Below are positions 20,485-37,344 of a stretch of DNA of 64,000 nucleotides, piece after piece; position 1 is the stretch's first letter, and each line of letters opens with the position of its first letter. The position numbers and the translations under genes are program-made. The stretch spans positions 1-64,000 of the forward strand of contig JAKFUG010000001.1 of NCBI GenBank assembly GCA_021732785.1. Reading direction: 5' to 3'. Under the pieces are notes generated by a model, which did not search any database, was not told the origin of the DNA, and saw only the letters and a list, made by a program, of their open reading frames with translations. The stretch is from Planctomycetaceae bacterium. GTDB lineage: Bacteria; Planctomycetota; Planctomycetia; Planctomycetales; Planctomycetaceae.

Positions 20485-20889
20485 TCAATGATGTTCGGGC
20501 TGCGGTTTGGCATGGCCATCGTCATGACCGTGTTCGCCACTGCCTGCGGCGGCTTGTTGCAAAGCATACTCACGCACCTGCGGGACATCCGGCGTGTAGT
20601 AATGGGCACCGACATCCGGGAAGAGGGCGAACGGCAACGCACACGCCAGAATTCCCGTCGGCAGCAGCAGCAGATACTTCCAGGCCCGCTCAAACTTGAG
20701 GTGCATGAAGAACATCATCACGCACAGGGCTTTCGCGGAAGCGATTGCCAGCACCAAGGCCCGCGTGACATTCTTGTCGGAAAACTCCAACAAGTCGGCG
20801 ATGATCGACAGCGCCGTGAACACGCACAAGGCAATGAACACCGCGAGGTACGTTCCGGCGTGGGAATGATTTTCGTCGTGATCGGACAT
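20485..20889 (-). CDS. coxD: Cytochrome c oxidase subunit IV family protein
   Basis: A 134-residue inner-membrane protein, the small accessory subunit of the haem-copper oxidase. After a His-rich N-terminus (MSDHDENHSHAGTYLAVFIAL) it has three hydrophobic helices, the middle one containing ALVLAIASAKALCVMMFFMHLKFE, which matches bacterial subunit IV (the AxxKxxxVxxxFMHL pattern). The C-terminal tail is Gly/His-rich. It is the last gene of the operon, 93 bases after coxC, with an inverted repeat in that gap. Confidence 0.88.
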   Translation of the reverse strand: MSDHDENHSHAGTYLAVFIALCVFTALSIIADLLEFSDKNVTRALVLAIASAKALCVMMFFMHLKFERAWKYLLLLPTGILACALPFALFPDVGAHYYTPDVPQVREYALQQAAAGSGEHGHDDGHAKPQPEHH

Positions 20890-20982: not shown

Positions 20983-22050
20983 CTAAACGATGTAAATCAG
21001 CGGGAACAGGAAGATCCACACGAGGTCGACGAAGTGCCAGTATAACCCGGCGTTTTCGACGAACACGGCGTTGTCCAACGACAACGGCGAACGAATCGCC
21101 AGCACGAACAGAATCAAACCAACGATCACGTGAATCGCGTGGAAGCCGGTCATCAGAAAGTAATTCGATGCAAACAGGTTGCCGTACAGAATCGGCCGGA
21201 TCCGTTCGACCTTGAACCCGGACATCAGCGGTGCGAGGTCTTTGTCGTCGAGAATCGCCGTCTTCACATGACCCAGCAGCGTGTCCGTTGGTGGGTGGTA
21301 CTCTTCGCCCTCATGGGGGAACGGACCGAGGGCCAGCGTCGGGATCTTGCTGACATCGGTTTCCGTGCGGAGTTTATCCAATTCCGCGAAAGGGACCGCA
21401 AAGGAAACCTCGGCCCGAATGTGATCCCGTAGGTTCACATATTCGTTGTAGAACTTCTTGACTGCCTGCGCCTGTTGCAGTTCTGCAGCAGTCTTTTTGT
21501 CACCCGTGGCGGCTTGCAGATCGGTGATCTTCGTATCGAGTTCGGCGAGCAGGTCTTCCCGTTCGCGCTTGGTCGACTTCGGAGCGATCGCCGAGAGATG
21601 ACCATCCAATCGATTGCCAACCGTCTTCAACAACTTCTCCATGGACTGGCGGTCGCTCTCGGCGATATGGCCAGGGAGAATGTCGTAGTCGATTTTTCCG
21701 TAATACTCGAACGACTTGATACCGAGGAACAGAATCCCCAGCACGACGCTCGCCGTCATGAACAGGCGGGCTTTGGACGGGTTTCTCTGCAGCACGGCAT
21801 CGTGCGCCACCACCACGAAATAGCTGGAAAGAATGAGCACGAAGGTGTTGATCCCACCGGCCCAGATGTTGATGTGCGTGACGTGAATGTCGGTGGGCCA
21901 CCCGGCCGACCCCATCCGCATGACGATGTAGGTGCCGATGAAGGCCGTGAAGAACATGATTTCCGTGCCGAGGAACAACCACATTCCGAGCTTGCCGTTC
22001 GGAATGGGGATGCCCATGCGGAGCGCGGGGGCGGCGGGAGCGTGACTCAT
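20983..22050 (-). CDS. coxC: Cytochrome c oxidase subunit III with a large soluble insertion
   Basis: Subunit III of the haem-copper oxidase, needed for stable turnover. Three helices ([64 protein letters not shown]) and, at the end, [22 protein letters not shown] plus [19 protein letters not shown] give the five-helix form. Between helices 3 and 4 (about residues 122-288) lies an extra ~165-residue polar domain that is charged and probably partly coiled coil ([19 protein letters not shown]). Typical bacterial five-helix forms are ~200 residues; this one is 355. The family glutamate in helix 1 (GTEIMFF) and the histidines in helix 4 are kept. ATG 22050 (MSHAPAAP) is preferred over 22077. Confidence 0.93.
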
Positions 22051-22093
22051 CTCGTCGTTCTTTCTTCTCGACTGCAATCCGGAATCGGTCCGG

Positions 22094-23059
22094 CTAACGC
22101 GCCAGCGGCGTGTGCAGCAGCCGCATGTGATCCCCCGCCAGCACGATCAGCAGCAGGGGCAAATACACCAGGGAAATCCATAACACCCACCGGGCGGACG
22201 CCCGCGATTCACGCCAGGCAAAGCCCGCCGACGCCATCGCATACGCCAACCCGAAGACAATCGCCGTCACCGAATACCATCCCCCGGCCAGTCCACACCA
22301 CGCGGGCAATAAACTGACGGGAATCAGACCGATCGCATACGCCGTCGCCATCAATCCCGTCACGCCGCGCGACGGATGTACGCCGGGGAGCATCCGCAAT
22401 CCGGCATGGGCATAATCGTCCTGATAAAGCCACGCAATCGCCAGGAAGTGCGGGAACTGCCAGACGAACATCAACGCGAACAGCGCGAACGCCGACCAAT
22501 CGAGCGGTTGCCCCGCCGCGACCCAACCGAGCACCGGCGGCATCGCTCCGGGAATGGCTCCGACCGCGGTGCAGAGCGAAGTCCATCGCTTGAGCGGCGT
22601 GTAGATCCCCGCATAAAACACGAACGTCATTGCCGTCAATCCGGCGGTGAGCCCGTTCACTTGCCATGCCAGATACAGGCTTCCCGTCACAGCCGCGAGC
22701 AGACCCAGACCGAGCACTTCACCGCTGGCGAGGCGACCGGAGGGCAACGGGCGGGACATCGTTCGCCGCATGCGGGCATCGGTGTGCTGTTCCCACCACT
22801 GATTCAGCGCGGAAGACCCGGCGGCCACAATCGCAATGCCGATCCACGCATGCAGCAGTTTCGTCAGCGATGCGGCTTCAAATCCCCACGGGCCCTGTTG
22901 TCCCACGAGAAAACCGACCGCCACCGTAATGAGGACCATCACGGCGATGCGGGGCTTGGAGAGTTCGAGGTAATCGGCAAGGCGTGCGGTGAACGCCGCC
23001 GTCCAGTCGGACCGACGTTCTTCCACCGCGGCGGGAGCCAGTTCCGTCACCGTACTCAT
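22094..23059 (-). CDS. ctaB: Protohaem IX farnesyltransferase (haem O synthase)
   Basis: An integral membrane UbiA-family enzyme that attaches farnesyl to haem b, giving haem O, the first step to haem A for the oxidase encoded beside it. About 321 residues with the start [17 protein letters not shown], the first Asp-rich motif region [23 protein letters not shown], the second Asp site [42 protein letters not shown] and [13 protein letters not shown]. Its ATG (23059) overlaps the ctaA stop by 4 bases (ATGA), so the two are translationally coupled. The longer upstream frame overlaps ctaA out of frame and is not real. Confidence 0.95.
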
Positions 23060-24015
23060 GACGCACTCCCTGCAAGAGAAGAGTGCGACATCGGAGCAGA
23101 GACATTCATCGTGAGTGAAATCGGCAGCGCACGGTAACAGCGGACCAAGGCCACAACGGCGGTCATCAACGTCATCAAGCCAAGCACTTTGTGGAAGCTG
23201 CGAATGGCGACCTGCAACGAGGAATTCTGCACGGCCACAATGTCCCACTGCGGGTAGCCATATTTCACCGCCCACGTCGCGATGCCGAGTAACGCCTGCG
23301 CGACCACGAACCCGACGACCCACCGCCCGGCACGCACAATGTGCGGGGCACCGGTCCGTTGGGCGAACACGCAAAACGCGGCGGCGGCAATCACCACGGC
23401 AATCGCAAACCACGGATGAACGAGCCACGCGGTGGCGGAACCAAGATGCCGGAGCAATCCTCCCAGCATGTATTGGGCGAGGAGCACGACCACCAATGCC
23501 ACCCCCGCGATGAAGACCGTTCCGCTGCGGGAGGCATCCATCATCGGAGACGCGGTCTGCCAGTGCCGACCGGTCATGGCGACGAGTAAACCCATCAGAC
23601 TAAATAGCCATGCGGCGAATTGACCGTGCATGAGAGCCAGAACGCGTTCGTTTTGAATCACCCGACTGCCGCCGAGCAAACCCTGCAGGATCACGCCGCC
23701 CAGAATGATGCCCACCAGCGTGCGCACCGCGGGGCGACACTCCCAGGCGAACGCCGCGGCGGCCAGACCGAGCGTCATCAATCCGATGAGCATGCCCGCC
23801 AGGCGGTGACCATGTTCGAGAAACTTGTCACCGGTCGATTTCAACCACGGATAGGCGAGCATCCCATGACCATCGGACGTCGGCCAATCGGCAAAGGCCA
23901 TCCCGGCATCCACCGTGGTCACGACCGCGCCGATGCTGATGGGCAACAGCGCAACAATCGCTGTCAGCCATGCCAGGCGGTGGATCCACGGTGATTCAGG
24001 AACGGCGGTCGACAT
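23056..24015 (-). CDS. ctaA: Haem A synthase (COX15/CtaA family)
   Basis: An eight-helix membrane enzyme that oxidises the C8 methyl of haem O to the formyl of haem A. The ~319-residue protein has two similar four-helix halves with paired histidines: EHGHRLAGMLIGL and LMHGQFAAWLFSL in the first half, LVHPWFAIAVVI and SFHKVLGLMTLM in the second. GGVILQGLLGGSRV also matches the family. ATG 24015 (MSTAVPESPW) is preferred; a TTG at 24033 is possible. It sits 39 bases after coxA and overlaps ctaB. Confidence 0.92.
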   Translation of the reverse strand: MSTAVPESPWIHRLAWLTAIVALLPISIGAVVTTVDAGMAFADWPTSDGHGMLAYPWLKSTGDKFLEHGHRLAGMLIGLMTLGLAAAAFAWECRPAVRTLVGIILGGVILQGLLGGSRVIQNERVLALMHGQFAAWLFSLMGLLVAMTGRHWQTASPMMDASRSGTVFIAGVALVVVLLAQYMLGGLLRHLGSATAWLVHPWFAIAVVIAAAAFCVFAQRTGAPHIVRAGRWVVGFVVAQALLGIATWAVKYGYPQWDIVAVQNSSLQVAIRSFHKVLGLMTLMTAVVALVRCYRALPISLTMNVSAPMSHSSLAGSAS

Positions 24016-24054
24016 GCAGTTCACGAACGGCAAAAGGACGGAAACGGCTTGCTA

Positions 24055-25902
24055 TTAATGTCCGGCTTGCGCGACGGCTTGCCGTTGCGACAGCGGAACG
24101 TATTCGGTCTGCGGGAGGAAATCGGTGTCGTGGCACAACGGCGACGAATACTCGTACGGACCATGGTAACAGACCGGCGGGATATCGAAGTTGCCGTGAC
24201 CCGGAGGCGAGGGCGTGGTCCATTCGAGGCCGTTCGCATTCCACGGATTGCGACCGCAGCGCTTGCCGAAGAACATGCTGCCGAAGAAATTCGCGAGCAG
24301 GAGGAACTGCGAGAAGCCCATCACAATGGCCGCACACGTCATGAACTGATTCAGCGGCAGCAGGTGTTCAAGGTACGGGAAGTGGTACGGGTCGGCGTAG
24401 CGGCGCGGGAAGCCCGCCACACCGAGCAAGTGCATTGGGAAGAAGGTGCAGTTGAAGGCAATGAACGTCAATGCGAAGTGCAACTGTCCGAGTTTGTCGT
24501 TCATCATCCGGCCGAACATCTTCGGGAACCAGAACTGAATCGCCCCGAAGCAACCGAACAGTGTGGCCCCGAAGAGCACGTAGTGGAAGTGGGCGACGAT
24601 GAAGTAGGTGTCGTGAATGTAGATGTCGACGGGCACCGCGGCCATGAAGATGCCCGACAGGCCGCCGACGATAAACATCGACACGAACGCGATGCAGTTG
24701 AGCATCACCGCATTGAATTGAATGCGGCCGCCCCACATCGTGCCGAGCCAGTTGAAGGTCTTCACGGCGGAGGGCAGGGCGATGAGAATCGTCGAGACCA
24801 TGAACGTCATGCCGAGGGCGGGGTTCATCCCCGAGGTAAACATGTGGTGGCCCCAGACGATGAAGCCGAGACCGGCGATGGCGGCGAGCGAGTAGACCAT
24901 TGGCTTGTAACCGAAGATGGGCTTGCGGCTCATGCACGCCAGCATGTCGGACACCATGCCCATTGCGGGGAGCAGCATGATATATACGGCAGGATGGCTG
25001 TAGAACCAGAAGAGGTGTTGCCACAGCAGCGGCTGACCGCCGCCGATCGTCGGGGCCGCGTTATTCACCACAATGCCCGACGGAATGAAGAAGCAGGTTC
25101 CGAGGGTCCGGTCGGCCACGAGCATGAAACCGGCCGCCGTCAGCACCGGCAACGCGAAGGCTTGCAGAATCGCGGTGATGAACATCGACCAGATCGTCAG
25201 CGGCATGCGGAAGAGCGTCATCCCCGGGGCCCGCATGTTGATGATGGTGGTCATGTAGTTGACCGACCCCATCATCGACGATACGCCGATGAGTGTCAGC
25301 CCGATCAACCACAAGGTCTGTGCGAACCCGGAACCGGGTGCCGCCTGCTGAATCGCCGAGAGCAACGGATAGCTCGTCCACCCCCCCGCCGGTCCCCCGC
25401 CGAAGAAGAAGCTCGCGCCAAAGCACGCAATCGCGGGCCACATGAACCAGTAACTCAGCGCGTTCAGCAACGGGAACGCCATGTCGTCGGCCCCGATCTG
25501 CAACGGAATCAGGAAGTTCCCGAAAGCCCCGGCGAGAATCGGGATGATCACGAGGAAGATCATCACCGACGCGTGCATGGTGACGAGCATGGTGTACGTT
25601 TCGGGAGCGATCTGCCCGCCGTCACCCTTGAAAACGGTATCGCCCAGAATCGGCATCCGTTCCCAGGGAAACGCCAGTTGCCAGCGCACGCCGAGAGCCA
25701 GCGCCCCGCCGACCATCAGCATCATCAGCGTGGTGATGAGGAACTGCATGCCGATGACCTTGTGGTCGCACGAAAACGTCGGCAGTTGCCACAGCAACGA
25801 CAACGGGCTCGGTTCGGCATGCCCGTGACCGTGATGTCCGTGGCTGTCGTGATCGTGTCCGCCGGCACCGGGATGGCCAACGTCGGGGGTGACTGTGCTC
25901 AC
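24055..25902 (-). CDS. coxA: Cytochrome c oxidase subunit I, A2-type haem-copper oxidase
   Basis: The catalytic subunit: reduces oxygen to water at the haem a3-CuB centre and pumps protons. The 615-residue, 12-helix protein has TMHASVMIFL (haem a His), SHPAVYIM with the crosslinked His-Tyr pair (H303, Y307), GHHMF (CuB His pair) and TYFIVAHFHYVLFG (haem a3 and a His). Instead of the WxxGHPEVY glutamate of A1 oxidases it has WFYSHPAVY, the Tyr-Ser pair that defines A2-type oxidases. The N-terminus is strikingly His-rich (residues ~10-29, HDHDSHGHHGHGH), possibly metal-binding. The start is GTG 25902. It lies 93 bases after coxB. Confidence 0.96.
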   Translation of the reverse strand: MSTVTPDVGHPGAGGHDHDSHGHHGHGHAEPSPLSLLWQLPTFSCDHKVIGMQFLITTLMMLMVGGALALGVRWQLAFPWERMPILGDTVFKGDGGQIAPETYTMLVTMHASVMIFLVIIPILAGAFGNFLIPLQIGADDMAFPLLNALSYWFMWPAIACFGASFFFGGGPAGGWTSYPLLSAIQQAAPGSGFAQTLWLIGLTLIGVSSMMGSVNYMTTIINMRAPGMTLFRMPLTIWSMFITAILQAFALPVLTAAGFMLVADRTLGTCFFIPSGIVVNNAAPTIGGGQPLLWQHLFWFYSHPAVYIMLLPAMGMVSDMLACMSRKPIFGYKPMVYSLAAIAGLGFIVWGHHMFTSGMNPALGMTFMVSTILIALPSAVKTFNWLGTMWGGRIQFNAVMLNCIAFVSMFIVGGLSGIFMAAVPVDIYIHDTYFIVAHFHYVLFGATLFGCFGAIQFWFPKMFGRMMNDKLGQLHFALTFIAFNCTFFPMHLLGVAGFPRRYADPYHFPYLEHLLPLNQFMTCAAIVMGFSQFLLLANFFGSMFFGKRCGRNPWNANGLEWTTPSPPGHGNFDIPPVCYHGPYEYSSPLCHDTDFLPQTEYVPLSQRQAVAQAGH

Positions 25903-25995: not shown

Positions 25996-26814
25996 TTACT
26001 TCTCATCGGCCTTCGCCGCCACCGCATCCGGCGTTGCGGGAACGCCGTCGTAGAACTGTTCTTTCGCCGCGTTGATTTTCCACGCTTCAAAATCTTCTTC
26101 GGAGGTGGCAATCACGCGGGCCTTCATCTTGTAATGACCCCAGCCGCACAACTCGGCACAGACCATGTCGTAGGTGCCAGTCTCCGTCACTTCGAACCAG
26201 ACGGGAATGACCAAACCGGGGACCGCGTCCTGTTTCACGCGCAATTCCGGCACGAAGATCGCGTGCTGGACATCATCGGAACGGAGGCTGATCGAAACGG
26301 GTTGACCGGCCGGAACGCGAATGTCGTTGACGGTGTAAATGTCGTCGGGTTGCGGACGGGGTTGCAGCGTCTTGCCGCGGGCGGGATAGCGGATCCGCCA
26401 TTCGAATTGCCGGGCGGTGACTTCAGCGACCGCCGCCGTCTTCTTCGGGAAGTAGGCCTTCACGCGGTAGTTCCGCCAGACGTCCATCTGGTAGAGGGCG
26501 ATGAAGAGCAGAATGCCCGACGGGACGATGGTCCAGATCACTTCGAGCGCATGGCTGCCGTGCGAGAACCAGACCTTTTCATCTTTCCGGATTTCCGCGC
26601 CGCGCCACAGCACATAGCCCAGCACGATATGCGTGCCGATGTAGGTCACCGCGACGATGATGAGAATCAAATAGAAGAGGTCATCGATCTTCTTGCCGAG
26701 CGTGGTATGGGCGTGACCGTCGCCGGGGAACCACCAGTACTCCGCGCCAATGGCGGTAAAGCCGACGGTGACCACCGCTGCAAGGCTGAAGAAGATTGCC
26801 CAGAATCGACCCAT
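25996..26814 (-). CDS. coxB: Cytochrome c oxidase subunit II (CuA-containing)
   Basis: Accepts electrons from a cytochrome or cupredoxin and passes them to haem a. The 272-residue protein has two N-terminal helices (residues ~5-25 and 45-70; a further hydrophobic stretch at ~92-110), then a periplasmic cupredoxin domain. All CuA ligands are visible: H184 in DVQHAIFVPEL, then C219-A-E-L-C223-G-W-G-H227-Y-K-M230. The usual RQFEWRIRYP (W, F electron-entry region) is present. There is no C-terminal cytochrome c domain, so it is aa3- rather than caa3-type. ATG 26814 (MGRFWAIFF) is preferred to the longer 26850 start. Confidence 0.95.
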   Translation of the reverse strand: MGRFWAIFFSLAAVVTVGFTAIGAEYWWFPGDGHAHTTLGKKIDDLFYLILIIVAVTYIGTHIVLGYVLWRGAEIRKDEKVWFSHGSHALEVIWTIVPSGILLFIALYQMDVWRNYRVKAYFPKKTAAVAEVTARQFEWRIRYPARGKTLQPRPQPDDIYTVNDIRVPAGQPVSISLRSDDVQHAIFVPELRVKQDAVPGLVIPVWFEVTETGTYDMVCAELCGWGHYKMKARVIATSEEDFEAWKINAAKEQFYDGVPATPDAVAAKADEK

Positions 26815-26870
26815 GACGGGAACACCCCTTGCTCGACACAAGACGACCATTGCGTCTTGAAAACGCTGCG

Positions 26871-28412
26871 TTATTGACCGACCGATTCTGTGGCTGCCAT
26901 GTGGGGAGCCGACGCGGGTTTCGCCGACGGGACCGACTCTTCAAATGGCAGGCTCATCACGAAATTCACGATGTCCCAGATATCACTGTCTTTGAGCACC
27001 GTGCCCCCGAAGGCGGGCATCGGCGTTCCCTTGATTCCGGCATACACGCGGCTGAAAACGTCAATCGGCCGGCGACCCCCGCGATATTGGCCCCGCGTCA
27101 AATCGCGCGGCGACAAGGGGTTGCCCCAGGTATCGTGCAGGCCACGCTTGGCATAGGTTTCGTTTGAACCGGGTTTCTTCCAGAAGTCCTCAATGGCGGC
27201 CCCGTTGCCGCGACCTTTGGCACCGTGACAGGTGTAGCACTTGGCTTTATCGGACATGTAGAGCAAGCGGCCGCGCTCGCGCGAGGCGGCATCGTCGGCC
27301 ACACGGGCTACTGTCGGCACAATGCGGCTCGCGGGATCGTCCGCCCGCTTCCACGCATCGGCGATGAACTCCGACGTGTCGTTGATCGTCCCTGCAAACT
27401 CTTCGTCGAGGTATTTCTTCAACTCTTCCCCAGCGGTCTTCTTGAGTTGACTCGCCGACTTGGCGGGCTCGGGCTTCTCGGCCTCTTTGTTGCCGGCCTT
27501 GCGGGCCTTGTCGTATTCGACCTTCGCCTCTTCATACGACTTCTTCGACTTCACGGCTTCCGCATCGAGGGATGTCTGCGAATAATCGCCCGACAGTTCG
27601 TCGACCAGCCGCTTTTCCATCTCCCCCCGCATGGCGAGCCAGCGGATGTACTCTACCACCGCTGCTTTTTCCTTGCCGCCGTCGTTGTTACCGAGCAGCA
27701 GAAACGACGGCATATAGGTGCCGGGAATGCCGTTCGTGATAATCCGTTCCAGATCTTCGCGGGCGGCTTTTTCGCTCGACAGCGTGGAGGTGAACTTGAA
27801 CAGGCCGAGGCGGTAATCGCGCGGACGGGGGTTGAGATACTGCGCCGTCGGTCCGTGGCCGTCTCCGGCGACGCCGTGGCAGTGGTTGCAGTTCTTCATG
27901 TAGACCGCGCGGCCGAGTTGCAACTGCTGGCCGTAACCGACAGAGACCCGATCCCCCGCTGCCGGGGCATCGCCTTTCGTTTTCAACTCGATCGTCTTCG
28001 TGGCGTCATCATATTTGACAACCATCGCCGTGGGATGCTTCGACTTGGCCAATGCGCCCGTCATCCACAGGAGTTCGCTGCCGGCACCGATGCCCGCCGA
28101 TGGGCCGTCCCACTTCACATGGAATTGTGTCGCAGACAGCGTTTCGCCTTCTGCGGCCGGTTGCACGGCTCCCTGCACACCACCGAAATCGACGGGGAGC
28201 TTATCCCACGCGACCAGATCGTGCGGCGTACCGAACGCATCGTGGATGGCTCCCTGCACGCCTTCGCGGGCTTTGGGCAATAGGTCGAGAGTGGTGTCGC
28301 GCCACGCGAACTGCGCCTCGGGGTTCTGAGAACACCCGACGGTCAGCACAACGAGACACGCCCCCCAAAGGAGCGAAGACCAACTTGGTAATGTCATTTT
28401 ACAGCGAAGCAT
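26871..28412 (-). CDS. Dihaem cytochrome c lipoprotein
   Basis: A 513-residue exported protein. VVLTVGC27 is a lipobox, so it should be lipid-anchored in the periplasm. Two CxxCH sites are seen, CNHCH at about 175-179 and CYTCH at about 392-396, with candidate distal methionines in GTYMPSFLLLG and TPMPAFGG, giving two class-I-like haem domains. A highly charged helical linker (~residues 285-345, SKKSYEEAKVEYDKARKAGN) joins them. An N-terminal ~150 residues without haem has no known domain. It lies directly upstream of coxB, so it is a natural candidate to deliver electrons to the oxidase. Similar arrangements replace soluble cytochrome c elsewhere; its place here is inferred. Confidence 0.88.
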   Translation of the reverse strand: MLRCKMTLPSWSSLLWGACLVVLTVGCSQNPEAQFAWRDTTLDLLPKAREGVQGAIHDAFGTPHDLVAWDKLPVDFGGVQGAVQPAAEGETLSATQFHVKWDGPSAGIGAGSELLWMTGALAKSKHPTAMVVKYDDATKTIELKTKGDAPAAGDRVSVGYGQQLQLGRAVYMKNCNHCHGVAGDGHGPTAQYLNPRPRDYRLGLFKFTSTLSSEKAAREDLERIITNGIPGTYMPSFLLLGNNDGGKEKAAVVEYIRWLAMRGEMEKRLVDELSGDYSQTSLDAEAVKSKKSYEEAKVEYDKARKAGNKEAEKPEPAKSASQLKKTAGEELKKYLDEEFAGTINDTSEFIADAWKRADDPASRIVPTVARVADDAASRERGRLLYMSDKAKCYTCHGAKGRGNGAAIEDFWKKPGSNETYAKRGLHDTWGNPLSPRDLTRGQYRGGRRPIDVFSRVYAGIKGTPMPAFGGTVLKDSDIWDIVNFVMSLPFEESVPSAKPASAPHMAATESVGQ

Positions 28413-28463: not shown

Positions 28464-29330
28464 TCAGGAGGCCAGCTTCGACGCCGGCACCGGGATTTCC
28501 ATCTCGGTTGGTTCATTCGGCTTGATGGTGACGATCAGGGATTTCTGCAGCAGCTTCCCCTTCTCGTGCCAGACCTTGAATTCATGTTTCCCGGCGGGCA
28601 AATCCTTGATTTCGAACTTGCCGTCGGGTCCGGAAACCGCCGCGTAGGGGTGATCGACCGGCAGATGCCAGGCGGTCATCCACGCATGCACGTCGCAACC
28701 CACCTGGAAGGGTTCCGCTTCAGCGCGGGTGTAGACCAAATCGACGCCGACGGTTTCGTTGGGTTTCACGCCCTGATTGAACGACGAATTGCGGCTGGGG
28801 TAAGTGTGTGTATTGTGCAACGCCGCGTCGCTATTCAAAATTTTGACGATTTGCTTCGTCTGCACGACGAGGGCATGCGGCTTGAAGATACACGATTTTT
28901 GATCGAACACGATCGGTTCGGTCGGAGCCGTCGGCGTTCCCTTCGGAGCTTTGGCCAGGTAGATGAAGACGTTGGCGAGTTTGCCATCGTTCGCCACGAC
29001 CGATTCATCGGGAATCTGCTCGACACCGCAGACGTCGGTATCTTTCGGTGCCGCGCCTTTGGCGTACTTGGCGGGCAGCGGGGCAAAATCGCCCTGGATG
29101 ACGACCGTTCCCTTAAAGGAACCAATGCCCGTGGGGGCGGCGTCTCCGGGAGTGACCGCGGCATCGGTGGTTGCTGCCACGGCGGCATCGCCACCGGCAG
29201 CGTCGGGATTCGCGGGCCGATACCGGACGGTGGTCTTCGCCATCGCACCGCCGCCGCAGCCCGAAGCCACGACCGCCAGCGTCAACGCCAGTCCGATTGC
29301 CGTCAGTTGTTGCATTGCAGGCCGATTCAC
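28464..29330 (-). CDS. Cupredoxin-like lipoprotein
   Basis: A 288-residue exported protein with lipobox VVASGC, an Ala/Asp-rich linker, and a cupredoxin-like domain: KPHALVVQTKQIVKILNSD, ALHNTHTYPSRNSSFNQGV, then VGCDVHAWMTAWHLPVDHPYA, ending in a carboxypeptidase-regulatory-like tail (GPDGKFEIKDLPAGKHEFKVWHEKG). The His-...-Cys-x2-His-x2-Met set looks like a type 1 copper site, so it may carry electrons between the multihaem protein and oxidase. The start GTG 29330 overlaps the preceding gene's TGA (GTGA). An ATG 15 bases further in would give a more usual signal length. Confidence 0.8.
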   Translation of the reverse strand: MNRPAMQQLTAIGLALTLAVVASGCGGGAMAKTTVRYRPANPDAAGGDAAVAATTDAAVTPGDAAPTGIGSFKGTVVIQGDFAPLPAKYAKGAAPKDTDVCGVEQIPDESVVANDGKLANVFIYLAKAPKGTPTAPTEPIVFDQKSCIFKPHALVVQTKQIVKILNSDAALHNTHTYPSRNSSFNQGVKPNETVGVDLVYTRAEAEPFQVGCDVHAWMTAWHLPVDHPYAAVSGPDGKFEIKDLPAGKHEFKVWHEKGKLLQKSLIVTIKPNEPTEMEIPVPASKLAS

Positions 29331-32300
29331 TTCGAGCCTCCGGTTTCATCCGCCGTCTTCACGGCATTGTTCGTCGTGACGGCGTCATTCTTTTTGACAG
29401 GAACCGCCGCGGCGGCATCACCCGCATTCGGAGCCGCGGGCGGGGTCATGGGATCGTAGATGATGCGCCCGTCCCGTTCCATCAACCGATGGTAGTTTAA
29501 CAAGGCATCGCGGGCGGCAATCGTCTGCAGATTGCCATCGCCCCCGAACAAGCCTTCGAGGTTCTTTTTCCCCGGCGGGAAGTTCTGAGGCATCGATGTG
29601 TAGGGCGTGACCCAGGTCGGGCGGTACAGCCACAACTGCAGCCAGTCGGGACGCAGCCGCTCGCCCGCCATTTCGAGATTGGGAGCCCGAATGTCCTTCG
29701 TCGGATCGGTGGTGATGGGCATCCGGCCACCGACGGCGTGACACTTGATGCACACCGGGCTGTTGAGAATCTTCCACGATTCCGTCAGGTAATCGTCCTT
29801 CTTCTCCGGGAAGGCGCTGTGCAATTCCGCGGTCTTGTCCGCGAGGTAATTCGGCTCGCGCTGCGGAATGGCCTGGTACGGATACGGTGCTCCATCGGCG
29901 GCGGCGAAGTAATTCGCGAGTGCTTGCGCTTCGTCCGCACTCATGTTGAAGCGCGGCATCCGCAGGACCGTGGTGTGTCGAATCTTCTCTGGATTGCGGA
30001 GGAAGTTGAACAACCACGGCGTCTGGACCTTGATCCCTTCCTGATACAGCGGCGGCGGCGAAGCCTGCCACGCCAAAGCCAATTGCGTGACCTGCTTCGT
30101 TTCCACCAAACGGGCAGCCAACCATTCGGCATACTTTCCACCGCGAGCGGGCTGGATGGATTGCATCGCTGCCGCGGGGAAAATCAGCTTCGTGGTGGGG
30201 AACAGCGCCTTGTCGCCGACCTTCAGGTTTTCCCAAAGTTCCGCCACATACTCCTGATCCGCGGGATCGTCGTCCGGGTTCGGGTACGCGGCCATCATGC
30301 CGTGGAAGCTGAGGACCGGCAGCGACTTGGTTTCGTCGCCACTCTTCACGGCCATCGTTTCACCGGTGAGTCCATTCCGCGGGGGCTTCAGCCTGTTCAG
30401 CAATTCGACTGCCATCGGGAATTCGGCACTCGCATCGGATGCCTGCAACCCTTCAACATCGGCCCCGTAGCGAATCTCGGGCAACTCCAGCATGTGGCAA
30501 CCGGTGCAGTTGAACTGCTGGAGCAGTCCTTCGCCCTTGATCCGCGCCCCGGCTGGGCCGGTCGGATTGAAGAGATATTCCGGATTCGGCGGTTCCGCGG
30601 TCAAGCCGAGGACAAACGTCGCGATGGCGTCAATGTCCTCTTCATTGAACGGGAACTTCGGCATCCGCAGACGATCATCGTACGGCTTGGTTTCCGCCAT
30701 TTTGAAGTCGTAGCTGCGCGGTTGACGCAACTTCTGCCACAGGAAGCCGGGGCGACCGTGATGGCCGAGACTCTCGTAATAGAACGCTGCGGACGTTTCG
30801 CGATCTTCCTCGGCGGAATGCTTGTATTCCTTGCGGCGGGCTTTGCCGAGTCCTTCCTGCACCCGTTCTTCCAACGAGCCATCCGGCGCAATCTGCATCT
30901 GCAGGGCCTTGCCAGCGCGCCAGATTTCGAGCGTTACCGGGGTGCCCGGTTCCGTGCGTCGCAGTTGGGCTTCCAATTGGGCAGCGTCGGCGATCGCGAG
31001 GCCGTTGAAGGCCAGGATCACGTCATCCGTCAGGAGAGCGTCTTTCTCGCGCTTCTCACCATCGACATGCACGGCCGACAACGGCGCTGTGCCGGGGATC
31101 TTCGTGCCGATGCGGACACCCGCTCCCCCTTCGACGTGCAACCGTGTGGCATCGGCCGCCGCGAGCGTTTCGGTCGCCATGCCCAAACCTGGCTGGCCGT
31201 GATGATGGAGGTATTCGTGAATGTGTTCGAACGCCAGCCGCGAACGATCTTTCTTGCCCCAGTCCTGCAGTGCGGTGCCGATCGGGCGAGCGGTTTCGAA
31301 ATTGGGGATTTCGTGGCAGCCGTAGCAACCGTACTTGCTGATCGTCTTGCGGCCGACGTACAGGAGCTTGCGTTGATGCCATTCGGTGGGATCGAGCGCC
31401 CCTTCCGGGCCGCTGGCGAGTTCGATTTCATCCCCCTTCAATAATTTCGCGGGGATGGGGTACTTGCCGGTCTTCATGAACTCCTCAATCTGCCCGGGAG
31501 TGAGCAACTTGATGAGGAAGTTCTGCACGAGATCATCGAGCGCGGCCGGTTCCACAACATGCGTGGCATATTCGGCCGTGGGCTTGTAGTCCGCCGGTGC
31601 TCCCTTGAGCTTCAGCAGGAATGCCGCAATGTCGGCCGCGGGGTCGATGTACTTGTCCCCCTCACCCTGGGCTTCCAGGAAGAGGTGCGGCATCTTCGTC
31701 CGCGGATGATACCGTTCCGGTTCGCGAATCCAGGTGTAGAGCCAATCGAAACCGGCCTTGCCGGGCTTCAGTTTCGCATCGACGCGGGACAACTCGGGAC
31801 CGAAGTCCGCATGGACCCCCGCCATTTCTGAGTGCGTATGGCAAGCCACACAGCCCTTCGTCGCGAACAGATCTTTCCCGCGTTCGGCGTTCGGCTGGTA
31901 ACCATCGATCGGCGACAGCGTATCGAATGCTTTCGACTTACCCAGCAGGTACGTCGTCACCCCGGCGATTTCCACCGGATTGAACTTCGCCGCGAGATCG
32001 TCGTGCTGATTGGTCAGCTTGAAGAACTGCGGCATCCGGGTGGTGGGACGGAAGCTCTTCGGTTCTTCGGTCCAGTTTTCAATCCAGCCCTGCACCGATT
32101 TTGAAGCGATGTGCTGCAGCGATGGGCCGACCTTCCGCATCTTCCCGGCGACTTGTGTCGGATCATTCGCGACCTTCTCGGCATCTTCCGCAGCCGGTTC
32201 GAGCCGCAGATCGACGCCGACGATTTTGGTTCCTTCGAAGCCGTTGATTTCGTGGCAGCCGAAGCAGCCATACTTCTTGACGAGTTCGTAGCCCTTCACG

Positions 32301-33484
32301 ACCTTCGGAGCGGTGGCACCGAACTTGGGACTCGTGCCCAGTTCCACGACATTAATGTGACACTTGATGCAGTTCGATTCCTCGAACCGCTTGGGATTCA
32401 TCGGCTGTTCCCAGAAGTGGTTGTCGAACCAGCCGTATTTCTCGTGCCAATCATGTTCGATGGCGGGATTGTTGGGGGTGTGCGAGGCGTTCTGGAAAGT
32501 CGTCCCGGAGCCCTGGCCCGAGTGGCAGGACGTGCAGCCGAACTTCGGCAACGGATGGGGACTGGCGGACGTGAGGAACAGATCGAGACGCGGGTGCGAC
32601 GCAAACGGATGCTCGAAGGTGCCGGTCCCTTTTTCCCCCGAACCGTGCGGGAAACCGGGCTTCGTGCCGACATCGACGCTGTCGATCATGTAATGGCAGG
32701 TCCGGCAGCGATCGAAGCGCTGCACATTGACCAGTCCGCCCAGAGGGATTTCCAGCCGCGGCATCCAGTCCTGCTGAATGCGTTCGGGCGAGTTGAAGCC
32801 GTTGATGATCGGCCACAACATGAAATCGCGCTTCATCGCGGAAAACGGACTTGTGGGTTCAATCTTATTCACCGCAGCGGAGAGTCGGTCGATATCGGCC
32901 CGCAACGCCTTCACGCGCAGTTCGGCTTTATCGCGCTCGGCTGTCACGGCTGCCAGCGCCGCCTTGGCCTGCACGACTTGAAGGCTCTCGGTGCTGTAAC
33001 GCTTCTCGAATTCCGTGGCGGTTTGCTCGGCAGTTTCGTACTTCTCGCGGAACTCGTCCTGAACGGCTTTCGGGTCGTTGTCGCGAACCTTGAGGCCGTA
33101 GGTGGCGCGGGCCACATCCCGTTCCGCCCGCTTCGTCCGCAGCAGACGCATCGTCGCCGCCGACTTCTGAGCCAGGTCGGAAACCTGTTTTTGCAACCGA
33201 TCAACTTCAGTTTGCTGATCTTTGAGATGTTGATCCGCAGAGGATTCCTGGGCCTTGGCATCGGCAGATTGCTTCTGGAACTCGGGATCGGCCTTGATGG
33301 CGGCGATCTTTGCTTTGTCCCGAGCGGCAATGTGTTTGAGCGCGGCCCGCTGAAACGGACGCCATTCATCGGCGTAGTCCGCCCACATCATCCACACCGT
33401 GGTGGCCAGGAACACCACGGAGGAGAGGGCGAAAATCTTGTGCATCCGCTTCGGGTCGCGGAGGAAATCATCAGTCGCCGGCAT
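29327..33484 (-). CDS. Giant membrane-anchored octahaem cytochrome c with coiled coil and PDZ domain
   Basis: About 1385 residues. An N-terminal helix (FALSSVVFLATTVWMMW) anchors it in the inner membrane; residues ~55-210 form a long charged coiled coil. Eight CxxCH sites follow near 260 (CRTCH), 317 (CTSCH), 372 (CIKCH), 407 (CFGCH), 545 (CVACH), 720 (CYGCH), 993 (CTGCH) and 1245 (CIKCH). Five later sites are each followed by an R/K/S-MP motif (RMPQF, KMPHL, RMPKF, RMPRF, SMPQN), suggesting class I His-Met haem modules; the first three lack it. A PDZ-like domain (~783-865, DDVILAFNGLAIADAAQLEAQL...VTLEIW) is inserted inside module six. The gene follows cytochrome b and no cytochrome c1 gene is present, so this protein probably takes electrons from the Rieske centre. 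The start may instead be GTG 33493. Confidence 0.92.
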   Translation of the reverse strand: MPATDDFLRDPKRMHKIFALSSVVFLATTVWMMWADYADEWRPFQRAALKHIAARDKAKIAAIKADPEFQKQSADAKAQESSADQHLKDQQTEVDRLQKQVSDLAQKSAATMRLLRTKRAERDVARATYGLKVRDNDPKAVQDEFREKYETAEQTATEFEKRYSTESLQVVQAKAALAAVTAERDKAELRVKALRADIDRLSAAVNKIEPTSPFSAMKRDFMLWPIINGFNSPERIQQDWMPRLEIPLGGLVNVQRFDRCRTCHYMIDSVDVGTKPGFPHGSGEKGTGTFEHPFASHPRLDLFLTSASPHPLPKFGCTSCHSGQGSGTTFQNASHTPNNPAIEHDWHEKYGWFDNHFWEQPMNPKRFEESNCIKCHINVVELGTSPKFGATAPKVVKGYELVKKYGCFGCHEINGFEGTKIVGVDLRLEPAAEDAEKVANDPTQVAGKMRKVGPSLQHIASKSVQGWIENWTEEPKSFRPTTRMPQFFKLTNQHDDLAAKFNPVEIAGVTTYLLGKSKAFDTLSPIDGYQPNAERGKDLFATKGCVACHTHSEMAGVHADFGPELSRVDAKLKPGKAGFDWLYTWIREPERYHPRTKMPHLFLEAQGEGDKYIDPAADIAAFLLKLKGAPADYKPTAEYATHVVEPAALDDLVQNFLIKLLTPGQIEEFMKTGKYPIPAKLLKGDEIELASGPEGALDPTEWHQRKLLYVGRKTISKYGCYGCHEIPNFETARPIGTALQDWGKKDRSRLAFEHIHEYLHHHGQPGLGMATETLAAADATRLHVEGGAGVRIGTKIPGTAPLSAVHVDGEKREKDALLTDDVILAFNGLAIADAAQLEAQLRRTEPGTPVTLEIWRAGKALQMQIAPDGSLEERVQEGLGKARRKEYKHSAEEDRETSAAFYYESLGHHGRPGFLWQKLRQPRSYDFKMAETKPYDDRLRMPKFPFNEEDIDAIATFVLGLTAEPPNPEYLFNPTGPAGARIKGEGLLQQFNCTGCHMLELPEIRYGADVEGLQASDASAEFPMAVELLNRLKPPRNGLTGETMAVKSGDETKSLPVLSFHGMMAAYPNPDDDPADQEYVAELWENLKVGDKALFPTTKLIFPAAAMQSIQPARGGKYAEWLAARLVETKQVTQLALAWQASPPPLYQEGIKVQTPWLFNFLRNPEKIRHTTVLRMPRFNMSADEAQALANYFAAADGAPYPYQAIPQREPNYLADKTAELHSAFPEKKDDYLTESWKILNSPVCIKCHAVGGRMPITTDPTKDIRAPNLEMAGERLRPDWLQLWLYRPTWVTPYTSMPQNFPPGKKNLEGLFGGDGNLQTIAARDALLNYHRLMERDGRIIYDPMTPPAAPNAGDAAAAVPVKKNDAVTTNNAVKTADETGGSK

Positions 33485-33557: not shown

Positions 33558-34916
33558 TTAGATATTAAAGAACCACTCCGGAATCGCCACAATGTACTTC
33601 AGATTGAACGACCATCGCAGCACCATCTTGATCGGTAACGACGCCATGAACAGAATCAGATTCGACAGCACCATGAACCGGATAAAGCCCATCTTGACGA
33701 AGAACTTGCGGAAAATGGTCACCGCCATCAGCGGGGGCAGCACAGCCAGATAAGCAAATGTCAGCAACAATCCCAGCCACTCACGCAACAGGATGTAACC
33801 GGCCTGCGTCCCCGGATCAGAACCCGCCGGGGCAACCGGCATCTTGGTATTCATCACCTTATACCAGAACCACTCCGACACGTTGACGTTGTTGAGCAGC
33901 TCGAGTTTATGAACGTCCCAGAACTCGTAAGGTCCGAAGAAGTTCCAGTTCGGGCCCCGCAGGAATGTCCCGAGCACGATCATCGCCACCCACAACGGCA
34001 GGAAGCCGAAGAGGAACGTGCTGATCGCAAACTTCCGTTCATTGAACGTATAGTAACCATTGCCGAGCTTGTTGAAGTCGATGTACGGGATCGCCATCAA
34101 CCCCACAAGGATCATACTCGGCAAGACCACCCCGGCCATCCACGGGTCGTAGTACACGAGCATCTCTTGCAGACCGAGGAAGTACCACGGGGCTTTCGAC
34201 GGATTCGGCGTTTTCGCGGAAGAGGCAGGTTCTTCGAGCGGAGCCTGAAGCACAATTCCCCACGCCACCAGCAGGGCCGTCACGAGGACCATGCAGATCA
34301 ACTCGCTGTAAACCAAATCCGGCCAAACGAGAATCTTTTCGTTCTTCTCCTGGGAATAGAGCGGTTTCCCCGCGGCTTTGCGCTGATCATTTTCGACCGC
34401 ACAGGCAAACGACAGCCACGTAAAGAATGCACAGATGAAGAGCATCGCCACAATGGGCACATTGTCCGGCTTGCCGACGATCTGGCGGAAGTCGTAATCG
34501 GTCATGCTGAGCGCGAGGAAAATCAGCGAGGCGTTCAGCAGGATCCAACCCACCGTCGGTTTGACGATCCATTCCCGCAGCAGGATGACCGCCACAAACA
34601 GGCCAACCGACAGCGAGAAAAAGCTCACCGGACCGGACACCGAATCGACCGCCGACTTGAAGGCATCCGGCATCCGCAACAGAAACATCTGCGGGTTGTC
34701 GGAACCCGTCAGGTGGGCGGTGGCGACCATCCCCAGCATGGCGGCGTACAGCGCCCAGAAGCTGGCGACAGGGACCCCCTGACCGAACATCTTCACTTCG
34801 CCGTCGTGGTGGTAGCTGCGCCAGACCCACAACGTGTTCATCAGGAACAGCAGGAGATAGAGCCATCCCAGGCCGTAAATGACCGAGGCGGTGAGATCGG
34901 GATGATGCTCAAGCAT
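33558..34916 (-). CDS. Cytochrome b C-terminal (subunit IV-like) protein with extra membrane helices
   Basis: A 452-residue membrane protein. The middle (about 238-330) matches subunit IV of b6f-type complexes: NPSKAPWYFLGLQEMLVYYDPWMAGVVLPSMILVGLMAIPYID. APWY stands where the quinol-site PEWY motif occurs in many bc complexes. Ahead of it are ~225 extra residues with about five helices, and behind it several more, so it is over twice the length of PetD. It would complete the quinol-oxidising site with the cytochrome b6-like protein encoded just upstream (72-base gap). What the added helices do is unknown. Confidence 0.88.
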   Translation of the reverse strand: MLEHHPDLTASVIYGLGWLYLLLFLMNTLWVWRSYHHDGEVKMFGQGVPVASFWALYAAMLGMVATAHLTGSDNPQMFLLRMPDAFKSAVDSVSGPVSFFSLSVGLFVAVILLREWIVKPTVGWILLNASLIFLALSMTDYDFRQIVGKPDNVPIVAMLFICAFFTWLSFACAVENDQRKAAGKPLYSQEKNEKILVWPDLVYSELICMVLVTALLVAWGIVLQAPLEEPASSAKTPNPSKAPWYFLGLQEMLVYYDPWMAGVVLPSMILVGLMAIPYIDFNKLGNGYYTFNERKFAISTFLFGFLPLWVAMIVLGTFLRGPNWNFFGPYEFWDVHKLELLNNVNVSEWFWYKVMNTKMPVAPAGSDPGTQAGYILLREWLGLLLTFAYLAVLPPLMAVTIFRKFFVKMGFIRFMVLSNLILFMASLPIKMVLRWSFNLKYIVAIPEWFFNI

Positions 34917-34988: not shown

Positions 34989-35762
34989 TTACAGCGGCTG
35001 GCTGATCCCGCCATCCTTCCGCACACGCCAGAAGTGAATGGCAATCAGCAGCGCCACCACGAGCGGGATCGCCACGCAGTGGAGAATGTAGAACCGGTTC
35101 AAAGTTCCCTCACCGACGAAGCGACCGCCGAGCAGCAGGAAGCGGGCATCGCTGCCGTTGGTGATCAGATCGAATCCACCGATATTGAGCAGCTGCGCCC
35201 CGGGACCTTCATAACCCAGGAACGGCGTCGCGCGGGCCATGTTCGAACCCACGGTAATGGCCCAGATCGCCAACTGATCCCACGGCAGCAAATAGCCGGT
35301 AAACGACAGCAGCAGCGTGAGCACCAACAGCAGCACACCGATTACCCAGTTGAATTCCCGCGGCGGCTTGTAACTGCCGGTGAGGAACACCCGATACATG
35401 TGCAGCCACACGGTGATCACCATCGCGTGAGCCGCCCAGCGGTGAATTTCCCGCATGATGCCGAGCGTGGTGACATCGCGCAGGGCGAGGATGTCGTTGA
35501 ATGCAAATTGCAGGGTGGGCCGGTAGTAGAACATCAGCAGCACGCCGGTGATGGTCTCGACCAGAAACAGGAAGAACGTGATCCCCCCCATGCACCAGGT
35601 GTAAGACAGGGCGATCCCCTGCTGCTTGATGGACACCGGGTGGAGATGGAGGAAGAAGTTGGTGAGCATCACCACCACGCGGTTCCGGCGATCAACCGGT
35701 GCGGGATGGCGGAAAATGCTCTTCCAAATCTGGGAGCCGCGGATGTAGTCGCCGACGGACAT
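34989..35762 (-). CDS. petB: Cytochrome b6-like subunit (N-terminal half of cytochrome b)
   Basis: The 257-residue, four-helix half of a split cytochrome b that holds both b haems and takes part in quinol oxidation. Haem ligands appear in REIHRWAAHAMVITVWLHMYRVFLTG and in the fourth helix, FYILHCVAIPLVVALLIAIHFWRVRKDGG. The fourth-helix histidines are separated by 14 residues, as in b6 proteins (13 in mitochondrial-type b). FTGYLLPWDQLAIWAITVGSNM matches the conserved quinol-site loop. It sits between the Rieske gene and the subunit-IV-like gene, the expected order. Confidence 0.94.
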   Translation of the reverse strand: MSVGDYIRGSQIWKSIFRHPAPVDRRNRVVVMLTNFFLHLHPVSIKQQGIALSYTWCMGGITFFLFLVETITGVLLMFYYRPTLQFAFNDILALRDVTTLGIMREIHRWAAHAMVITVWLHMYRVFLTGSYKPPREFNWVIGVLLLVLTLLLSFTGYLLPWDQLAIWAITVGSNMARATPFLGYEGPGAQLLNIGGFDLITNGSDARFLLLGGRFVGEGTLNRFYILHCVAIPLVVALLIAIHFWRVRKDGGISQPL

Positions 35763-35818: not shown

Positions 35819-36904
35819 TCAGGCCAGCGAGCCATCGACGAACGATGTCGCATCCACCCATTGACCCATTTCTTCCTGGAACTTCATGCTCTTGTTGACT
35901 TCGAGCATCCCGTCTTCGGCGACCCGGAGACCCACGCGTTCGAGCGGACGCGGAGCCGGGCCTTCAAAGTTCACGCCGGTGATATAAAAACCGGACCCGT
36001 GACAGGGGCACTTGAATTTCTGTTCGCCGTCCAGCCAACTGGGCGTGCAGCCCAGGTGCGTGCAGACCGTCGACAAGGCGTAGATCAAGTCTTTGCCTTC
36101 GTACTGGTCGGTATGCACAATCCAGACGCCGAATTGATCTTTCCACTTATTCGAGACCGCATTGAGCGGGTAATCGCTCGGCGGGCCAATCTTGAATTTC
36201 GAGGGAGGCTCGACCAGCACGTTGGGGAACATGAACCGGGCCGTACCCAAGGTGGCGATCCCGGTGACGACAGACAACGCGGCCCACGCCATCGCAAACG
36301 GCGACAGCAGCACGCACCAGATCAACGCCCCAATGGCAATCAAGACGGGGCTGGCGAAAACGCCCCCCAACACGAATGAAACCAGCGAAACCCCCGCGAC
36401 CGTGACCAGACCGGCCAGACTGCGCCGAGCGGGAGCCGGCGCGCCCTTCTTTGCTGAAGGAGGCAACGGCCGGGCGGGCATCGGCGGGGCCACCACGGGG
36501 GGCTTGACCGCGGCGACCGGAGCCGCCGCACCGGGCTTCGCAGCCCGAACCATTTCCGCAATCGACGGCAGCGGTTTCGCCGGACCCGCCGCGGCAGCGG
36601 CTACCGGAGCACTGGCGGCAACGGTGGCCGCTGCAGCCGGTGTTGCCGGCGCAGGAGCCGCAGCGCCGCCCTTTTTCGCACGAATTGCAGCGAGAATATC
36701 CGCCGTCGATCCCGGCTTGGCAGCCGGAGCCGCGGGCTTGACCGGGGCCGTTTCCACCAGAGCAGCGGCGACCGGCGGCGCGGGCTCCGCCACCGGGACG
36801 GCTGCGGCTTCAGGGGCCGTCGCTGGCGATCCCCCCGCGGCGGCCGCCTTCTGGGCGCGGATCTTCGCGAGAATATCGGCGGTGGAGGGCTTCTTCTCTT
36901 CCAT
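35819..36904 (-). CDS. petC: Rieske iron-sulfur protein with long Ala/Pro-rich N-terminal extension
   Basis: Carries the 2Fe-2S cluster that takes electrons from quinol. The C-terminal domain has CTHLGC (C281, H283, C286) and CPCHGSGF (C299, C301, H302): four ligands plus the disulfide pair. About three membrane helices (163-225) precede it, rather than the usual one. The first ~160 residues are an Ala/Pro/Lys-rich, probably cytoplasmic extension with repeated motifs STADILAKIRAQKAAAAGG (7-25), STADILAAIRAKKGG (66-80) and SIAEMVRAAK (114-123). These echo motifs in the unrelated protein at 4053-4658. It is the first gene of the operon. ATG 36904 (MEEKKPS) is preferred; the frame is open to 36970. 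Confidence 0.93.
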   Translation of the reverse strand: MEEKKPSTADILAKIRAQKAAAAGGSPATAPEAAAVPVAEPAPPVAAALVETAPVKPAAPAAKPGSTADILAAIRAKKGGAAAPAPATPAAAATVAASAPVAAAAAGPAKPLPSIAEMVRAAKPGAAAPVAAVKPPVVAPPMPARPLPPSAKKGAPAPARRSLAGLVTVAGVSLVSFVLGGVFASPVLIAIGALIWCVLLSPFAMAWAALSVVTGIATLGTARFMFPNVLVEPPSKFKIGPPSDYPLNAVSNKWKDQFGVWIVHTDQYEGKDLIYALSTVCTHLGCTPSWLDGEQKFKCPCHGSGFYITGVNFEGPAPRPLERVGLRVAEDGMLEVNKSMKFQEEMGQWVDATSFVDGSLA

Positions 36905-37344
36905 AGCGAAACAACGCCGAGTGCGGACAAAGGACAGACTCAGCCGTCGCCGAGCAGGAACTTTGACCAAGAGTCTGGGAGTGTTTGCGACTCGCTCGAC
37001 AGTGCAACCGAAAGCCAGCAGAAACCGGTCTCGGTCCGTCGAGCCACAACGAACCTCGGGATTCTGGCATGATCAATCAAAGCTGACAACCGGATCGCTC
37101 ACCTGCCACCCTGTTTTTCTCAGAACCAAGAAACCCGGAGGTGATGGCCAGCATTGCGATAACGTCGCCATCACCTTACGTTTCTGTTGACTCCGCGGAT
37201 TTCCGGGAGCGATTGTCAACGGAATTTCCGCCCGCCTTGCGTCGGCGACTCAACCTATCGGCATCCGTTCCCTCGTTTGTGCGGCTTTCTCAAAGCCGGG
37301 AAGTTCCGCGTGCGGGCAGCCGATCCATCGGCGGGAGTGCATCG
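36905..37344. other. Divergent intergenic region upstream of the respiratory operon
   Basis: A 440-base gap between the Rieske start and the DUF4392 start. It must hold the operon promoter, but I see no clear -35/-10 boxes or operator palindromes. The in-frame extension of the DUF4392 gene (37141-37344) is not protein-like. Confidence 0.5.

Follow-up and report, generated by a model that had tools for sequence, protein, structure and literature searches.

A PDZ domain lodged in a haem module of an octahaem cytochrome c from a b6f-like operon of Planctomycetaceae

We analysed 64,000 nucleotides of a Planctomycetaceae bacterium (GenBank assembly GCA_021732785.1, contig JAKFUG010000001.1, positions 1 to 64,000 of the forward strand; hereafter the window) and focused on a gene for an octahaem cytochrome c. 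This gene stands in the place of cytochrome c1 or f in a cytochrome b6f-like operon, and its product carries a PDZ domain within one of its haem modules. The protein is probably the cytochrome c subunit of a b6f-like Rieske/cytochrome b complex that does the job of c1 or f, with the PDZ domain as a lineage-specific accessory. The complex is of a known kind, since an anammox counterpart has been published; the recurrent insertion of PDZ domains is new. The octahaem protein and its parts are as follows.

29327..33484, minus strand: octahaem cytochrome c of 1385 residues, the main finding (open reading frame, motifs, homologs)
33380..33436, minus strand: single N-terminal membrane helix, residues 17–35 (hydropathy)
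32843..33352, minus strand: coiled-coil stretch, residues 45–214 (3.46-residue period over 69 homologs)
32285..32737, minus strand: tri-haem domain (CxxCH 260, 317, 372), probably bis-His with H297, H310 and H335 (alignments)
31925..32287, minus strand: class I haem module 4 (C407, M484; motifs, alignment)
31607..31888, minus strand: class I haem module 5 (C545, M598; Pfam Cytochrom_C at 533–626, alignment)
30605..31387, minus strand: class I haem module 6 (C720, M941), split by the PDZ domain (alignment, PDZ profile)
30869..31195, minus strand: PDZ domain of HtrA/DegP type, residues 764–872 (Pfam, sequence, fold)
29915..30532, minus strand: class I haem module 7 (C993, M1176) with a beta-rich insert at about residues 1005–1115 (alignment, structure prediction)
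29465..29782, minus strand: class I haem module 8 (C1245, M1298; alignment)

The reading frame runs on the minus strand from an ATG at 33484 to a stop at 29327, and close relatives begin with MPAT- or MPAN-type sequences, which supports this start. Hydropathy exceeds 1.6 in a single window of the protein, residues 17–35, in agreement with the one membrane helix that a sequence-only reading of the same DNA had described. The coiled coil of about 150 residues proposed there was recovered as a property of the family and not of the target alone: hydropathy of residues 45–214 averaged over 69 homologs peaked at a period of 3.46 residues (3.41 versus at most 1.49 in 300 shuffled sets), whereas the period was not significant in the target sequence by itself (1652 of 2000 shuffles as high). 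The eight CxxCH motifs that had been claimed were found at residues 260, 317, 372, 407, 545, 720, 993 and 1245. MP motifs lie at 484, 598, 941, 1176 and 1298, with further MP pairs at 1, 241 and 1255. The tri-haem domain weakly matched a solved c7-like chain, 8k9e (E value 4.6e-6; best stretch 0.009).

Homologs were drawn from 14 named loci and from further genomes of the phylum and family. Matches at an E value of 1e-10 were found in 114 of 294 phylum genomes, many over parts of the protein only, and at 1e-60 in 128 of 170 family genomes; the listed genomes of genus g3 are without the protein at the latter threshold. Exactly eight CxxCH motifs occur in 33 of the 34 first loci, the remaining one being cut by a contig end, and in all 40 further loci. 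The alignment set comprised 69 distinct sequences including the target, with duplicates removed. Dropped before counting were L017 (cut by a contig end, five CxxCH), L050 (the same as L014) and L099, L103, L129 and L130, whose C-terminal 600 residues are the same as those of L016, L013, L018 and L009; near-copies such as L008 and L019 were retained. Because eight CxxCH motifs are present in each of the 69 sequences, the haem motifs are not a matter of chance.

Alignment of this set revealed that M484, M598, M941, M1176 and M1298, which follow CxxCH 4 to 8, are invariant (69/69), and that H297, H310 and H335, at 69/69 each, are the sole histidines outside CxxCH to reach 97%. The same three histidines emerged from a separate first-domain alignment of 32 sequences. 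Motifs 2 to 8 keep their Cys and His in 69/69 as well; for motif 1 the figure is 68/69 (C263, H264) because the first CxxCH of L066 lies elsewhere and is unaligned, its true first motif being at its residue 126 and the Cys aligned at 260 being part of an insert. From the five invariant methionines and exactly three extra invariant histidines, our best inference is a protein with three bis-His and five His/Met haems. The conservation bears out the earlier suggestion that the last five haems, each paired with an MP motif, are class I, and it turns bis-His ligation of the first three from a possibility into a probability.

The evidence for the PDZ domain comes from sequence and predicted fold. 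Pfam PDZ_2 matched residues 813–865 (E value 3.4e-8; 34.1 bits versus a cut-off of 27), and among solved sequences DegQ is the nearest (E value 0.002). GLGM at 766–769 stands at the place of the peptide-binding loop, and we take it to be the peptide-loop motif. AlphaFold2 was run twice, on 14-row alignments and with no haem, giving a mean predicted local distance difference test score (pLDDT) of 47 and 58; good prediction was obtained mainly for the PDZ domain, a few helices and the beta-rich insert of module 7. That insert (residues 1005–1115) is well predicted and has no Pfam match. In the model of residues 630–1010, which is poor overall (mean pLDDT 58, predicted template-modelling score 0.37), residues 769–866 show a PDZ-like order of strands and helices with a block pLDDT of up to 92. 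Foldseek with the predicted domain retrieved HtrA-family PDZ domains (best E value 5.6e-6), and VIA-align matched it to DegP (Z 13.8; root-mean-square deviation 2.3 over 96 residues) and to MamP (4jj0; Z 11.0). Profile match and predicted fold together put the domain between C720 of CxxCH 6 and M941, inside module 6, where the sequence-only reading had placed it (between CYGCH at 720 and a distal Met at about 941). A PDZ fold is predicted at 783–865, the extent given there; the domain itself is longer, about 764–872. HtrA, DegP and DegQ PDZ1 domains are its best match in both sequence and fold; unlike those proteins, the octahaem protein has no protease domain. The genome holds no close copy of the segment elsewhere (best other match E value 0.001, 35% over 54 residues).

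PDZ domains were found in 25 of the 69 sequences, at three positions: site A, inside module 6 (13 sequences); site B, between M598 and C720, that is, between modules 5 and 6 (11); and a third site in L066. None was detected in 44. K745 to K918 spans 173 residues in the target versus 67–92 in same-family relatives without an insert, and M598 to C720 spans 216–251 residues, once 355, at site B versus 111–135 without an insert. Of the 24 rows found with our custom PDZ profile, 15 had served to build it, and the profile missed the domain of L066. Among the 31 first sequences Pfam reported a PDZ in 16, one being L066, where the domain (about residues 212–268; PDZ_6, 35.1 bits versus 27) lies between the first CxxCH (126) and the second (339). 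A Pfam scan of 29 second-batch PDZ-free rows gave no PDZ at an E value of 0.01, and the rest of the 44 were scanned separately. The domain is present in each of 16 additional rows from the target's genus and genus g252, some of them repeats of earlier genomes. Ten rows from other genera have none, four of these being from genera with an incomplete stretch or frame or already counted.

In a tree of 1132 core columns, from which 11 far rows were left out, site A forms one clade with full support, and nine of the eleven site B rows group together in one clade, with L115 and L126 placed elsewhere. The PDZ state changes at least five times with L066 and four times without it, a count that does not separate gains from losses. 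A single clade for the 24 site A and B rows was rejected (p 8e-57), as was a single clade for site B (p 4e-64; without L126, p 0.0033), in approximately unbiased tests under LG+G4 with no mixture model, with long outgroup branches present and L066 counted as PDZ-free. Because the domains lie at different sites, they do not go back to one insertion: a PDZ was inserted in the target's lineage, and related bacteria appear to have done so separately elsewhere in the protein.

Other segments occupy these loops as well. Six family rows (L013, L014, L132, L131, L106 and L114) have non-PDZ inserts at site A or B, and L112 and L116 have an extra 80–90 residues between haem 4 and its Met; none of these eight inserts gave a match over the Pfam cut-off. 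At site A of L013, L014 and L132 stands a different domain of about PDZ length, and the match of L014 and L132 to parvulin-type peptidyl-prolyl isomerases is weak (Rotamase_2, E values 0.006 and 0.01, below the cut-off).

The octahaem gene is flanked on one strand by Rieske, b6-type and subunit IV genes upstream and by lipoprotein, dihaem cytochrome c and oxidase genes downstream.

35819..36970, minus strand: Rieske iron–sulfur protein (Pfam Rieske, E value 4.3e-8; CTHLGC and CPCHGS motifs)
34989..35762, minus strand: cytochrome b6-type subunit (H107/H121, H228/H243, C57; Pfam, sequence match, alignment)
33558..34916, minus strand: subunit IV-like protein with the quinol-site motif APWY (Pfam, sequence match, alignment)
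28464..29330, minus strand: probable lipoprotein with cupredoxin-type ligands H172, C212, H215 and M218 (translation, alignment)
26871..28412, minus strand: dihaem cytochrome c (CxxCH 175 and 392; Pfam scan, motifs)
25996..26850, minus strand: cytochrome c oxidase subunit II (Pfam COX2; CuA-type Cys/His/Met motif read in the translation)
24055..25902, minus strand: cytochrome c oxidase subunit I (Pfam COX1, E value 5e-148)
23056..24033, minus strand: haem A synthase family, COX15-CtaA (domain scan)
22094..23428, minus strand: UbiA-family protein, probable haem O synthase CtaB (domain scan)
20983..22077, minus strand: cytochrome c oxidase subunit III (domain scan)
20485..20889, minus strand: cytochrome c oxidase subunit IV (domain scan)

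The neighbouring proteins were aligned as well. The Rieske ligands C303, H305, C321 and H324 are present in 29/29 rows (rows under half the target length excluded). In the b6-type subunit (Pfam Cytochrome_B, E value 1.1e-40), H107, H121, H243 and C57 are present in 32/32 rows and H228 in 31; its His pairs are spaced 14 and 15, which we take as the b6 rule, and C57 presumably occupies the place of the cysteine that holds haem c_n in b6f. Subunit IV scored 22.0 bits with Cytochrom_B_C versus a cut-off of 20.7. The cupredoxin ligands of the lipoprotein, whose GTG start overlaps the octahaem stop by four bases and is uncertain, are kept in 35–36 of 36 rows.

This arrangement recurs. Beside the octahaem gene, 34 loci held a Rieske gene in 32, a b6 gene in 32 and a subunit IV gene in 33, L014 and L050 being one region fetched twice in these locus counts. 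L011 lacked the Rieske gene and L017 both the Rieske and the b6 gene, each being a locus at a contig end, and in L062 neither b6 nor subunit IV was found. Within the window's family, COX2 and COX1 follow in 19 of 22 loci, and the remaining three end before these genes could be reached; outside the family the two genes were seen in 2 of 12 loci (L057, L064), where the fetched flanks differ in length. Cytochrome c1 (PF02167) had no match in the genome, cytochrome f (PF01333) had none over the cut-off and one sub-cut-off match on another contig, and Pfam lists neither domain for the octahaem protein itself. No NrfD-like membrane subunit of an alternative complex III and no NAD(P) oxidoreductase domain was found among the operon genes scanned. 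With a b6-type cytochrome b, a CuA-type oxidase on the same strand and no match to c1 in the genome, the earlier proposal that the octahaem gene replaces c1/f after a split cytochrome b stands. It had named a separate c1 gene constantly accompanying the operon as the counter-evidence to look for, and no conserved c1-like gene occurs with it: the conserved neighbour is the dihaem cytochrome c, the only other multi-CxxCH frame in family loci. Single-CxxCH frames of at least 100 residues occur in 6 of the 22 family loci at scattered places, and the one beside the octahaem gene of L053 reads like an out-of-frame translation.

Several further features of the neighbourhood were recorded. The P243, W244 and Y245 of APWY in the subunit IV-like protein are conserved in 32/32 rows; the usual quinol-site motif is PEWY, and APWY is without its Glu. 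Ahead of its membrane region, the Rieske protein carries a long N-terminus rich in Ala and Pro, in which STADILAxIRAxK-like segments recur. The b6-type subunit scores near ExtP of the selenite/tellurite reduction operon (260.9 bits versus a cut-off of 290). The cupredoxin-like lipoprotein is a possible blue-copper electron acceptor and is present in two copies in L051–L054. A second Rieske/cytochrome b complex is encoded elsewhere in the genome (contig C64, L138 5931–8440, minus strand), with a cytochrome b fused to a two-CxxCH stretch (623 residues), as described for Kuste3096-3097 in PMC12954380.

The closest published counterparts are the Rieske/cytochrome b-type complexes Kustd1480-1485 and Kuste4569-4574 of the anammox bacterium Kuenenia stuttgartiensis, which, according to PMC12954380, comprise a b6-like cytochrome b, a subunit IV-like protein, a Rieske protein and a hexa- or octahaem cytochrome c replacing cytochrome f; one of the complexes is modelled with long helices wrapping it. 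The planctomycete operon is like them in all four respects, with an octahaem cytochrome c instead of cytochrome f. Unlike them, it has no NAD(P) oxidoreductase among the scanned genes, it is followed by a CuA-type oxidase, and its octahaem subunit holds a PDZ insert; the likeness to Kustd1485 is set by the published description, not by its sequence. The sequence-only reading had seen in the octahaem protein the electron exit of an unusual quinol:oxidase complex. Its place at the c1/f position beside an oxidase agrees with such an exit; the complex is of a kind already known in anammox. Two homologs of about 950 residues, whose genomes gave hydrazine-synthase-like hits, carry all eight haem motifs and every one of the eight distal ligands. 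We infer that families f44 and f75 are anammox bacteria because they have HZS-alpha hits whose open frames are mostly about 809–844 residues long (PF18582 matches 57 of 294 genomes and is not diagnostic alone). The anammox-type locus L153 has Rieske, b6 and subunit IV genes beside the octahaem gene, and L152 has the octahaem gene without these three within the 15 kb fetched.

With cytochromes b6f and bc1 the operon shares the b6-type His spacings, Cys57 and the Rieske ligands; it differs in having no f or c1, an eight-haem subunit, a larger subunit IV (452 residues) and APWY. MamP of magnetosomes (4jj0) resembles the octahaem protein in combining a PDZ domain and CxxCH haems in one chain, with the fold match given above. 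We know of no link between MamP and a quinol complex. The nine Pfam families listed for the octahaem protein include no magnetochrome, the presence of such a model in the library being unconfirmed. In MamP the PDZ precedes two magnetochrome domains (PMC3971196), whereas here it lies inside a class I module. Searches of the open-licence literature for PDZ with multihaem, Rieske or planctomycete terms returned no paper on such a subunit, only magnetosome papers. For Phycisphaerales, alternative complex III and no bc1 are described in PMC11266412, a report on which we do not rely.

Because it diverges fast and 44 of the 69 sequences have no detected PDZ, the domain is an accessory, outside the electron path and dispensable for the complex. 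A hydrophobic-Gly-hydrophobic loop is kept in 21 of the 24 rows with a PDZ at site A or B; the exceptions are L115 and L126, which read LGA there, and L107, where the match to the profile begins only beyond the loop. Together with the three insertion sites, this kept motif makes docking or self-association the likeliest role for the domain as judged from sequence, and we lean towards some selected binding role. The fullest form of this idea, in which Planctomycetes repeatedly built a peptide-docking PDZ into the eight-haem subunit of a quinol complex, at three positions, so as to hold a partner at the haem wire, is rather unlikely as a whole; the partner may be the oxidase, a carrier or an assembly factor.

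Several observations weigh against this picture or against the part given to the octahaem subunit. In 11 of the 12 site A relatives the PDZ is 0.30–0.48 identical to that of the target versus 0.66–0.73 for the haem core (0.75 versus 0.91 in the twelfth); because its identity is well below that of the haem core, from which it departs by diverging about twice as much, constraint on the PDZ is weak by this measure. PDZ-free relatives keep the operon, L013, L014 and L051 with the same oxidase genes. The third site rests on one sequence, L066, a more distant relative from another family of the same class, and the non-PDZ inserts at sites A and B fit a tolerant loop as well as selection. No octahaem match at 1e-60 was found in 42 of the 170 family genomes, and both AlphaFold2 runs predicted the haem domains without confidence, leaving haem positions and the orientation of the PDZ unfixed.

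A near-neutral insert in a domain-tolerant loop, with no selected binding, would account for the fast divergence and for the unrelated segments inserted at sites A and B and in the stretch from haem 4 to its Met; the occurrence of PDZ domains at three positions, the repeated changes on the tree and the persistence of the binding-loop motif make this somewhat doubtful. Alternatively, by analogy with MamP, whose dimer is stabilized by PDZ contacts (PMC3971196) and whose PDZ matches in fold, the domain could be a dimerization surface between the halves of the complex, Rieske/b complexes being dimers (PMC12954380). Three insertion sites would need different ways of meeting the partner, and most relatives must dimerize, if at all, without a PDZ, so that we regard this role as unlikely. 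Recruitment of a periplasmic protease or chaperone that assembles the complex or controls its quality would fit the DegP/DegQ/HtrA type of the closest folds and the parvulin-like match at the same site in L014 and L132, but that match is under the curated cut-off and no protease or chaperone was found among the operon genes scanned, which leaves the proposal improbable.

The sequence-only reading had favoured a tether, with the PDZ binding the C-terminus of the oxidase or of another operon partner to form a quinol–oxidase supercomplex. The oxidase is encoded nearby, the peptide-loop motif is kept and Rieske C-termini in the family are often hydrophobic; however, no PDZ was detected in 44 of 69 sequences, some with the same oxidase operon, and hydrophobic Rieske tails also occur without a PDZ. 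Inspection by eye of the C-termini of nine operon proteins revealed none specific to PDZ-bearing lineages, and the tether, found unsupported, is decidedly improbable. That the octahaem protein works outside the quinol-oxidizing complex, for example in extracellular electron transfer, for which eight haems (many for a c1/f role) and the ExtP-like b6 subunit might speak, is very improbable indeed given its linkage to Rieske, b6 and subunit IV genes in nearly all loci and the anammox counterparts described within such complexes.

In the reading that we prefer, of an octahaem subunit doing the work of c1 or f, one helix would anchor the protein in the membrane and lead into the long coiled coil, which may wrap around the complex as in the model of anammox Kustd1485; the haems would follow in the order three bis-His, then five class I His/Met. 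Quinol would be bifurcated at cytochrome b, and the Rieske protein would hand one electron to a haem of the octahaem subunit. Either the cupredoxin-like lipoprotein or the dihaem cytochrome c would then take the electrons on to CuA of the co-encoded oxidase, with the PDZ as a lineage-specific accessory in a loop of haem module 6.

An eight-haem wire here holds the c1/f position. Its ligand pattern is strict and the same in all Planctomycetota homologs that were fully read, and this wire accepts extra domains in its loops. The repeated appearance of the PDZ provides natural pairs, with and without the domain, for testing a docking module in a respiratory complex. If Planctomycetes did build docking PDZ domains into it again and again, this would amount to convergence, by domain insertion, on respiratory supercomplexes.

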